Part shown: positions 28,968 to 33,674 of the stretch, piece after piece
How the letters are laid out: each line of letters starts with the position of its first letter
Numbering within the stretch: position 1 is the stretch's first letter
NCBI GenBank assembly: GCA_027075325.1
Contig: JALTBN010000051.1
Span: 63,558-127,557 of the forward strand
DNA length: 64,000 nt
DNA from: Thermococcus sp.
GTDB taxonomy: Archaea > Methanobacteriota_B > Thermococci > Thermococcales > Thermococcaceae
Direction: 5' to 3'
Notes under the pieces: generated by a model
What the model was told of the DNA's origin: nothing
The model's database searches: none
Seen by the model: only the letters and a program-made list of their open reading frames with translations
Translations under genes and position numbers: made by a program

Positions 28968-29025
28968 GCGTCAGCTAATACCGACGTCATCACCCATCAG
29001 ACTGGGCAAGGGTCGTCATCCGCGG
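28968..29025 (-). ncRNA. C/D box small RNA (2'-O-methylation guide)
   Basis: On the minus strand the order is C box CGGATGA (29016-29022), 15-nt guide (29001-29015), D' CTGA (28997-29000), 3-nt spacer, perfect C' GTGATGA (28987-28993), 12-nt guide (28975-28986) and D CTGA (28971-28974). Ends are GC-rich and can pair (GCG/CGC). A TTTTAAG TATA-like element lies about 25 bp upstream (29047-29053). Size and spacing match archaeal L7Ae/Nop5/fibrillarin guide RNAs. By the N+5 rule the D guide would target a U in CUAAUACCGACG and the D' guide a G in ACUGGGCAAGGG. Confidence 0.82.
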
Positions 29026-30491: not shown

Positions 30492-32393
30492 TCAAATCCC
30501 CGCCCCAATGTCCTCTGCAATGTCAGGGAGGTCGAGGGCGACGAGCTTGACCTTGGTCGGAATTCCGTCCCGGCTCCAGCCGCGGGCCTGGTAGTATTCA
30601 TCCAGCATCCTGTCAAGCTCCCAGGGCGGGACGTGAAGGCCCTTGCTGACACCCTCGGGTATCGGCTCCCACATCACCCTGTACGGGAGCGTGTCGTCCT
30701 TCCTGCTGAAGCCCTCGCGGACGTTGAAGGCCCTGGCGATGTTCATTATCCTCTCGCCGATGACCATCAGCTCTGCCTCGCCGATGTTCATTCCGGTGAC
30801 GGCCTCGACCAGCGGCGGGAAGCCCTCAAGGAAGTACATGTGGCGGGAGAACTTGCAGGTTCCAGTGGCGTCGTAGACTGCCATGAGGTTCTCGTGGAAC
30901 GCTATCTCAAAGCCCTTGTTCTCGCCCTTGGTCCTGTCGATGTTGTCAAACTTCCACCACCTGCCGACGAGCTCGGTTCCATATGCTCCAGCGGTGAGGT
31001 GGTCTGCACCGCGGACGTTGACTGCAAATGCCAATGCCATGCCCTTTATGCCACGGACGTCATACGCGGGAGGCTCCATTCCCTTGACGTGCATGGCGAA
31101 CTTCCAGCTCTCCTTACCGAGTCTCTCACTGGCCCTCTTAACACCGTCGGCGAGGAGCTTTCCGAGGTTGCCCTCGCGGAGCGCCATCTTCCTGAGGGCC
31201 TGGACAGCGGCATCACCGTTGCCGAAGGTGAGCTCAAGGCCATCGGTTTCCTCCTTGGTGAGGAGACCGCGCTCGTAGGCCTCCATGGCCCAGGCTATGG
31301 TAACACCGGCCGAGATGGTGTCGAGGCCGTACTCGTCTGCTATCTTGTTCAGATAGGCGACTGTCTCGAAGTCGTCTATCTCAAGCACTCCACCGAAGGA
31401 GTAAAGGGTCTCATACTCCGGACCGTCGACCATGAAGGTGCCCCACTTCTCGCTCTCGACCCTGACGTACTGACTGCACGGCTTGTTGCACATCGGGCAC
31501 GGCCTCCTGCCCGCGCGGTACTTCGGAGCCCAGAAGTACGGGTCGATACCTATGTGTTCCCTTCCCTCCTCCTTGGCCTTCTCGTAGGCCTTCTTGAAGA
31601 AGCCCATCTGCCAGTTCCTGGTCGGGAAGGTTCCCCTCTCGCGGTTCATCCAGTCGAGGAACTCACCGCTTCCGTACTCCATGTCTGCCTTGGTCGCCGG
31701 GTGGTCCTTAAAGACCAGCGCCCACTCCTTGATGAGTTCGCGGAGCTTCTCCGGGTTGGCTATCGGAACCTTCTTAGAGCCCTTAACGAGGATACCCTTG
31801 AGCTTCTTGCTTCCGAGGACTGCGCCGGGGCCGCCTCTAGCGGCCTGCCTCTCGTCGGTTTCGATTATCGAGATGAGGCTGAGGTTCTCGCCGGCGGGGC
31901 CTATGAAGGCTGTTGCAAACCTCGGGTACTCCTTCTTGGCCTTGGCTCTTGCCTCGCCGGTGGTGAGGCCCCAGTAGCCGTCAGCGGGAACGAATTTAAC
32001 CTCCTCATCCTCGATGACGAGAAGAACGGGCTCCTCGCTCTTGCCCTCTATGATAAGCATGTCGTAGCCGGCCCTCTTGAGCTGGACACCGAGCTCTGCA
32101 CCGGCCATCGATCTGCCGTATCCCCCTGTCAGCGGGCTCTTGAAGTTGAAAGCGGTCTTTGAGCCGGTTCCTATACCTGTGTCAACGAAGAGACCGGGCG
32201 TGATTATCATCTTGTTCTCCGGTCCGAGCGGGTCAGCTTTAGCTGGAACTTCGTCGTAGAGAACTCTGGTTCCAAACCCGACGCCGCCGAGGTACTTCCT
32301 CGGGAACTCCTCCGGGAGGGGCTCCACCTTGACCTCCTTCGTGGTCAGGTTGACCCTCAGAATCCTGCCCCAGTAACCGCCTTTCGCCTCCAT
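30492..32393 (-). CDS. Tungsten aldehyde:ferredoxin oxidoreductase family, WOR4-like
   Basis: A 633-residue AOR-family enzyme. The [4Fe-4S] cluster ligands are CPMCNKPC (about residues 297-304) plus a late Cys in ATGTCKFSRH. Pterin-binding blocks include FKSPLTGGYGRS and AARGGPGAVLGSKKLKG. It differs clearly from AOR, FOR and GOR sequences as recalled, and size and C-terminal features fit WOR4 of P. furiosus, whose substrate is unsettled. In P. furiosus WOR4 is encoded close to the cyclic bisphosphoglycerate genes, as here. A CTTATATT TATA box lies near 32430. Confidence 0.85.
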   Translation of the reverse strand: MEAKGGYWGRILRVNLTTKEVKVEPLPEEFPRKYLGGVGFGTRVLYDEVPAKADPLGPENKMIITPGLFVDTGIGTGSKTAFNFKSPLTGGYGRSMAGAELGVQLKRAGYDMLIIEGKSEEPVLLVIEDEEVKFVPADGYWGLTTGEARAKAKKEYPRFATAFIGPAGENLSLISIIETDERQAARGGPGAVLGSKKLKGILVKGSKKVPIANPEKLRELIKEWALVFKDHPATKADMEYGSGEFLDWMNRERGTFPTRNWQMGFFKKAYEKAKEEGREHIGIDPYFWAPKYRAGRRPCPMCNKPCSQYVRVESEKWGTFMVDGPEYETLYSFGGVLEIDDFETVAYLNKIADEYGLDTISAGVTIAWAMEAYERGLLTKEETDGLELTFGNGDAAVQALRKMALREGNLGKLLADGVKRASERLGKESWKFAMHVKGMEPPAYDVRGIKGMALAFAVNVRGADHLTAGAYGTELVGRWWKFDNIDRTKGENKGFEIAFHENLMAVYDATGTCKFSRHMYFLEGFPPLVEAVTGMNIGEAELMVIGERIMNIARAFNVREGFSRKDDTLPYRVMWEPIPEGVSKGLHVPPWELDRMLDEYYQARGWSRDGIPTKVKLVALDLPDIAEDIGAGI

Positions 32394-32540
32394 ATCAGAA
32401 TCACCTCGAAGGATTTTCGGCCCAAAGAATATAAGCCCTTCGAAAGGGGTTCTGTTTTATGGGAAATCCCGTGTTAAGCAGGTATGTTATCAGCCGTGAA
32501 CCGTGCCGAAGCAATCTTTGGAAGGAACCACAAACTCGAT

Positions 32541-32873
32541 GAGACTCAACGGGACTGTCATCCCGTGCGTTGGTTCTTTGCTCCAAAGTCGCGAAGGCAA
32601 AACAAACTTTGCAGTGCAAAGTTTGATCAAAGAGTTCCTTTATCATTAAAAGAGCAAAAATTATCATTAAAAGAGCAAAAATCAGCGTGCACTACTAAAG
32701 TGCAACGTTAGATGTGGTTTAATCCCCAGATTAGTCCCTTCGAACAGTTTCAACTTTAATCAGCGCCCGAAGGGCGCTTTATGCAGTGAAACACTCACCA
32801 AAGGAGCAGATGATAAAAACCCATTCCAGAAATGCAACTTGTAAAAAAAGGCACTTGTTTTCCGCCAGCGCTG
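32541..32873. repeat. Hairpin-rich repeat unit, copy A
   Basis: This non-coding unit is collinear with copy B at 33141-33456. Shared blocks in order are CTCAACGGGACTGTC, TCCCGTGCGTTG, a 21-nt palindrome at 32604-32624, ATCAAAGAGTTCCTTT, AGCGTGCACT, a hairpin at 32762-32778 and TTTCCGCCAGCGCT. Loops vary between copies while stems persist. It is more AT-rich than nearby genes and has no coding potential. Function unknown. Confidence 0.75.
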
Positions 32874-33140
32874 AAACTTCGCACTGCAAAGTTTCATCAA
32901 AGTTCGTGATTCCTCTCTTGAGGCTCTAACTTGAGAGGATTTCAAGTGTAATTGGCAGTGCTAACAGGGGATTCACTGGAGAGGCTCTTAGTGAGGGGTT
33001 CACTCTGGTCGCGTTCCGTTGGAGCGCTAAAAAGCCGAACCCACTTGAAAAACGCTCCTGATGAGGAATCCACTCTTAAATGGCACTTTAAAGAGAAATC
33101 CTGCCAAAATTGTTCTCTTAGAAAAAGAATCGCCAACCTT
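32874..33140. repeat. Spacer between repeat copies, with a third palindrome copy
   Basis: At 32874-32894 lies a third, imperfect copy of the palindrome (AAACTTCGCA and TGCAAAGTTT), followed by TCATCAAAG as in copy B. The remainder, to 33140, is AT-rich, with no gene, RNA or further repeat recognised. Confidence 0.6.
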
Positions 33141-33456
33141 GATCAAACTCAACGGGACTGTCGTCCCGTGCGTTGAAGCGAAGCTTCAACGTCGCGCAGG
33201 CAACAAACTTTGCAATGCAAAGTTTCATCAAAGAGTTCCTTTCTCATAAATAGACGATAGTATTAGCGTGCACTCTCTTTGCGACCCATTAGCAAGGGGG
33301 TTTGTTCCCAAAAGAATCCCTTCAAGCAGTTTGCAGTTTATTCTGGCGTCCAAAGGACGCCTTGAGGAGAGCAAACGCTGTGAGATAGCGATTAATGAGT
33401 AAACCCCTTTGGAAATTAGCATTTCCAGAATAGTACACAATCTTTCCGCCAGCGCT
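33141..33456. repeat. Hairpin-rich repeat unit, copy B
   Basis: The second copy of the unit, about 600 bp from copy A. Its hairpins are at 33153-33168 (CGGGAC/GTCCCG), 33173-33189 (TTGAAGC/GCTTCAA), 33205-33225 (palindrome) and 33345-33361 (GGCGTCC/GGACGCC). The last pairs differ from copy A at two positions on both arms, so base pairing is kept. It ends 20 bp before the 3' end of tRNA-Met. Confidence 0.75.
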
Positions 33457-33475
33457 TGCTCTGCAAGGGCTGTAA

Positions 33476-33583
33476 TGGTGCCGGGGCGGGGCTTTGAACC
33501 CCGGACCTCTCGGTTTCTCAGGCTCCCCCGAAGGGGAGCGGCCCTATGAGCCGAGCGCTCTGACCAGGCTAAGCTACCCCGGC
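33476..33583 (-). tRNA. Elongator tRNA-Met (CAT) with intron
   Basis: Acceptor strands GCCGGGG (33577-33583) and CCCCGGC (33480-33486) pair; the discriminator is A and CCA is encoded (33476-33478). D stem GCTT/GAGC, anticodon stem CTCGG/CCGAG, anticodon CAT at 33546-33548, T stem CGGGG/CCCCG with loop TTCAAAG. A 30-nt intron (about 33515-33544) interrupts the loop after position 37 and folds as GCTCCCC/GGGGAGC, as usual for a bulge-helix-bulge substrate. The first pair G-C and lack of initiator features indicate the elongator form. Confidence 0.93.
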
Positions 33584-33674
33584 ACGACCCGAGCGCTCGA
33601 CCTATACCTCCAGGAGGGCATTTTTAAATCTTTCGATTCTTTGGATTGGGGTTCCTGAGACGCCTCCGAAGACG

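Follow-up and report, generated by a model that had tools for sequence, protein, structure and literature searches.

What is the duplicated, hairpin-rich, non-coding DNA that lies between two genes in a 64 000 nt stretch of a Thermococcus contig (hereafter, the window)? A sequence-only reading had described two collinear copies (32541-32873 and 33141-33456) that share blocks and hairpins, with base pairs changed on both arms, and had inferred selection on structure at the RNA or DNA level. The observation was confirmed when we re-examined the sequence. Its interpretation was partly supported: conserved pairing is seen across many relatives, but selection at the RNA level is not supported and selection of any kind is not proven. 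The element proved to be one member of a large, apparently undescribed repeat family stacked at tRNA 3' ends, whose arrays coincide with rearrangement endpoints.

A stack of modules behind a tRNA-Met gene

The two copies share a segment of 79 nt at 77% identity and one of 53 nt at 91% identity, plus shorter blocks. In the central hairpins of the two copies, two of seven pairs have changed on both arms, as claimed. The second hairpin, also said to keep a pair by a double change, is weaker than stated: it is a perfect 7 bp stem in one copy but pairs over only 4 bp (TTGG/CCAA) in the other, where one of the four pairs is a double change. The palindrome that had been reported as a third copy is one of three junction palindromes. 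The segments fold better than dinucleotide shuffles (z of -2.2 to -4.2), and the observation is more than chance.

Three things had been missed: the middle segment (32874-33149) is itself a module of another subtype, the whole stack abuts a tRNA gene, and the element is dispersed across the genome. The tRNA was found with Rfam and, allowing introns, with ARAGORN, which mislabels it Ser(aga); its anticodon was read by hand. The element starts 4 nt after the encoded CCA and fills the space down to an aldehyde:ferredoxin oxidoreductase-like gene, so named from our reading of the protein. In the direction of the tRNA, it consists of a type A module, a type B module, a second type A module and a remnant, the three modules being ~270-280 bp each.

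Table. Features of the tRNA-Met locus and nearby genes (window coordinates)
Position	Strand	Feature	Support
33476-33585	-	Elongator tRNA-Met (CAU) gene with a ~29 nt anticodon-loop intron; encoded CCA at 33476-33478	Rfam RF00005, 53.4 bits at 33479-33583; ARAGORN; anticodon read by hand
33204-33472	-	Module 1 (type A), tRNA-proximal: proximal hairpin CAGCCCTTGC..GCAAGCGCTG, nested inverted repeat, distal palindrome 33205-33225	Sequence; family alignment A1; covariance model R1 hit of 110 bits at 96854-96964 of contig C51
33345-33361		Central hairpin of module 1, GGCGTCC-AAA-GGACGCC	Sequence; helix 4 of A1, 96% of cells paired
33173-33189		Second hairpin, perfect 7 bp stem	Sequence
33147-33203	-	Junction of modules 1 and 2: long-form linker hairpins (CAACGGGAC..GTCCCG..CGTTGAAGC..GCTTCAACG)	Sequence; same long form in other arrays, short form CAAACTTCGCCTGCGCGAAGTTTG in most
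32872-33149	-	Module 2 (type B): long imperfect palindrome with terminal inverted repeats ATCAAAG-GTGATTC / GAATCAC-CTTTGAT; junction palindrome at 32874; central hairpin 33011-33027	Fold; family alignment A2; copies at other tRNAs
32601-32871	-	Module 3 (type A), distal palindrome 32604-32624	Sequence; repeat analysis; family alignment A1
32762-32778		Central hairpin of module 3, AGCGCCC-GAA-GGGCGCT	Sequence
32640-32681		Perfect 21 bp tandem duplication inside module 3	
32522-32600	-	Remnant of a fourth module (proximal linker hairpins only, then degenerate)	79 nt repeat family D1, 77% identity to 33125-33203
32570-32586		Second hairpin, 4 bp stem	Sequence
30492-32393	-	Aldehyde:ferredoxin oxidoreductase-like gene	Reading of the protein
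28968-29023	-	C/D box snoRNA between protein genes, ordinary for the group	RF00095

Modules of the family at large are 250-285 nt long and imperfectly palindromic throughout, with a central 7 bp GC hairpin and short palindromes at the joints. The type A core between the GGGTTT and AAACCC arms is 107-116 nt in all 42 copies aligned. The junction hairpins occur in a short form and in a form ~40 nt longer (CGTTGAAGC..GCTTCAACGCACGGGAC..GTCCCGTTG), and the long-form insert is among the most conserved parts of the family (up to 98% across species). A second short repeat (GTGGGGCGAAGCCCCAC, GGGGGTTTGAGAGTACAG) sits inside some junction hairpins, in two oriented copies (loci L029 and L033) and in the 3' flank of a tRNA-Val (tac) gene (L131).

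Repeat modules at tRNA 3' ends

The absence of both transcription and further copies had been named in advance as grounds for rejecting the sequence-only reading. The genome of the window (G000) holds about 20 related clusters, of which 17 lie directly 3' of a tRNA gene. The three others, on contig C27 at ~304.8 kb (L026), ~323.3 kb (L027) and ~91.2 kb (L028), do not; L027 lies at one end of a ribosomal protein operon, and the three may mark former tRNA sites or other targets. By similarity search, which depends on an element library built in this study, 23 of 39 tRNAs in genome G026 and 25 of 40 in genome G027 carry the element, which begins 2-8 nt after the CCA. Exact-pattern hits in named records are all Thermococcus or Thermococcaceae.

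In order to test the linkage without bias, and to carry out the covariance search suggested at the outset, a model (R1) was built from 42 type A cores and run on three complete Thermococcus genomes. Of 38 hits with E below 1e-4, 32 lie within 1 kb 3' of a listed tRNA and none 5', with 30 in the orientation of the tRNA. Two more lie behind tRNA-Trp, giving 34 of 38, whereas about 2% of each genome would qualify by chance. Covariance searches found modules in 57 of 61 species of the genus, a few copies in three other genera and none in nine species of a further genus.

Distances to the tRNA cluster at 2-8/~22, ~280-305, ~580-620 and ~840 nt, and the modules stack in tandem with a period of ~290 nt from the tRNA. 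Of 119 modules near a tRNA, 99 share its orientation; in a breakdown by type these were 47 of 50 type A and 52 of 69 type B modules. At the tRNA-Met locus of 30 species, 25 carry an element of varied type and 5 are empty or degenerate. Comparison of orthologous flanks, another check proposed beforehand, showed that loci L184 and L183, and likewise L186 and L175, are colinear downstream over 733-969 nt of aligned flank, but that one member of each pair has an extra whole module between the CCA and the older module. That this is gain rather than loss is inferred, as no outgroup was available, but it is supported by the finding that proximal modules are closer to consensus and better folded than distal ones (p 0.006 and 0.010). 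These data suggest that stacks grow at the tRNA end.

The modules were compared with known systems. They resemble MITEs in being short, non-coding (no coding capacity was noted) and dispersed, in the terminal inverted repeats of type B and in their variable presence at orthologous sites. They differ in that inverted pairing runs through the whole module, in the nearly exclusive 3'-tRNA site and in tandem stacking at the tRNA. No target-site duplication was seen at the species-pair junctions and the old junctions are eroded hairpins, so this feature speaks neither for nor against MITE membership, which we leave undecided. Long elements sharing the module ends were not sought systematically, and none turned up on plasmids or phages; nor was any copy of the module found on plasmids, phages or viral contigs. 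The rtT repeats of Escherichia coli tRNA operons are tandem non-coding units directly 3' of a tRNA gene. There was no match to the rtT model at gathering score or at E<=5, no duplication of the tRNA end was seen in each unit by eye, and the modules are dispersed genus-wide over many tRNAs. No other Rfam family matched above threshold, in agreement with the sequence-only reading, to which no known family had suggested itself. Casposons target the 3' end of tRNA genes and insert beside them without altering them (PMC4046053), and the modules share this position. However, they are ~280 bp without genes, and so lack cas1 and polB, and showed no ~14 bp target duplication; Cas1 was not searched for in the genomes. 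IS200/IS605 derivatives and REP/BIME palindromes share hairpin ends and palindromic non-coding units, but the modules are larger and nested. IS200/IS605 transposition, suggested by TTAC before some hairpins, was rejected as the general mover because the Y1 transposase (PF01797) is absent from 8 of 10 genomes carrying the elements and the preceding bases vary. The enzyme that would move the modules has not been identified.

Pairing within the modules

Misalignment had been put forward as a possible source of the double changes. On alignment A1 (42 type A sequences, aligned without structure), 83.5% of cells pair, compared with 44-48% when the partner is slid by one column. Forty cells are double changes, against 18.2 +/- 3.2 in shuffled alignments, with 0 of 500 shuffles reaching that number. 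Relatedness can inflate this count, and the outermost helix is poorly aligned. RNAalifold consensus on pooled diverged alignments failed to recover the nested stems, so helices were named by hand and counted with controls. Type B modules (alignment A2) pair at 92.9%, but their covariation is uninformative because the paired columns hardly vary.

A structured non-coding RNA, or a long tRNA trailer read from the tRNA promoter and acting in regulation, tRNA 3' maturation or termination, would fit the start 2-8 nt after the CCA, the orientation of type A modules, which also fits co-transcription, the strong folding and the covariation. An RNA fold should, however, tolerate G-U on its own strand, so that G-U should be commoner than A-C on the transcribed strand. 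The counts were 20 vs 23 in type A and 20 vs 16 in type B (40 vs 39 in total), and sense and antisense strands fold equally well relative to shuffles (z -3.7 and -3.8). The modules are also absent behind many tRNAs and vary between species at the same tRNA. We regard a functional RNA as unlikely, although no transcript data were examined. The results favour a DNA-level palindrome, or palindrome correction during replication.

The latter raises the possibility that there is no selection on structure: the copies would be passive repeats spread by ectopic gene conversion among tRNA 3' flanks, and the compensatory changes would come from quasi-palindrome correction (template switching) in replication, which can make paired changes without function. 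This is consistent with the symmetry of G-U and A-C, with junction-hairpin loops in both orientations (CCTGCGCG and CGCGCAGG), and with tRNA-Arg (gcg) and tRNA-Asp (gtc) of G000, which carry the same module, apparently identical as judged by eye. We consider it doubtful, as inner core length is tightly kept, whole-module insertions begin at the tRNA end and the family is shared by nearly the whole genus (57 of 61 species).

REARRANGEMENT

Synteny was compared 4-4.5 kb either side of shared tRNAs in G026, G027 and a third genome, G034. For G026/G027, tRNAs without elements in both genomes kept their downstream neighbours in 9 of 10 cases, and those with elements in 15 of 34 (Fisher p 0.013). 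Merging tRNA clusters into loci gives 9/10 vs 14/28, and 10/12 vs 14/26 and 12/13 vs 16/26 for the other pairs (p 0.056, 0.147 and 0.063). At locus level the enrichment is therefore only suggestive per genome pair, and the pairs share genomes and are not independent. Half-broken element loci keep the upstream side: 5, 6 and 5 loci were 'upstream only' in the three pairs, against 0, 1 and 1 'downstream only'. Over 30 species the tRNA-Met gene has 5 upstream but 16 downstream synteny classes.

Downstream arms were exchanged between unlike, element-bearing tRNAs. G027 and G034 show a reciprocal Leu-CAA/Val-GAC swap, while G026 and G027 show a three-way cycle, Val-GAC to Leu-CAA to Thr-GGU to Val-GAC. 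Upstream sides were kept in these exchanges. Synteny resumes at or within ~190 nt of the array ends: at 648/188, 261/1093, 1085/173 and 187/385, against arrays ending at 647/157, 165/1092, 1092/113 and 157/366; the fifth, 458/806, resumes ~170 nt beyond.

We conclude, with fair confidence, that the element is a stack of non-coding, quasi-palindromic DNA modules belonging to a dispersed family that inserts immediately 3' of tRNA genes in Thermococcus. The analysis itself demonstrates the position after the CCA, the module architecture, the tandem stacking, the extra modules in species pairs, the turnover at orthologous tRNAs and the coincidence of arrays with exchanged chromosome arms. It is by inference that we regard the palindrome as a DNA-level feature, and that modules spread as DNA, either as non-autonomous mobile elements moved by an unknown host or MGE recombinase recognizing the tRNA 3' end or hairpin ends, or by ectopic conversion anchored at the tRNA. 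That inverted copies at different tRNAs act as recombination substrates, flipping the chromosome between unlike tRNA genes, is likewise inferred. More tentatively, the modules may be a new class of archaeal selfish DNA that homes to the 3' edge of tRNA genes, always adds new modules next to the tRNA and, by providing inverted homology between unlike tRNA genes, is a main cause of the rapid chromosome inversions of Thermococcus.

Inversion endpoints at tRNA genes, including Leu/Thr and Leu/Gly, have been published (PMC5495485). That work attributes the events to tRNA sequence and an integrase and, as far as we found, mentions no repeat family. A review states that transposable elements are absent or rare in Thermococcus (PMC8371274). 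We found no description of the present family, although an earlier account outside the literature searched is not excluded. A repeat family behind most tRNA genes in G026 and G027, with arm exchanges falling at its arrays, offers homology between unlike tRNAs and a simple and testable answer to how such inversions arise. It also shows that these genomes hold an extensive repeat family.

Alternatively, SSV-type integrases acting on tRNA genes could cause the breakpoints, with the modules as bystanders. Int-pTN3 recombines tRNA genes and low-specificity homologous segments, but could not invert tRNA-Leu with tRNA-Thr in vitro (PMC5495485), yet such exchanges are seen here between module-bearing Leu, Val and Thr genes, and only 1 of 10 module-free loci broke between G026 and G027. 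We consider this explanation unlikely. In its favour, an apparent integrated element splits tRNA-Ile in G000: contig C72 (18.5 kb) starts near a complete tRNA-Ile (50-124) and ends with only the 3' half of tRNA-Ile followed by a module (locus L037, 6425-6547), which looks like a mobile element integrated in tRNA-Ile with the module array pushed to its far end.
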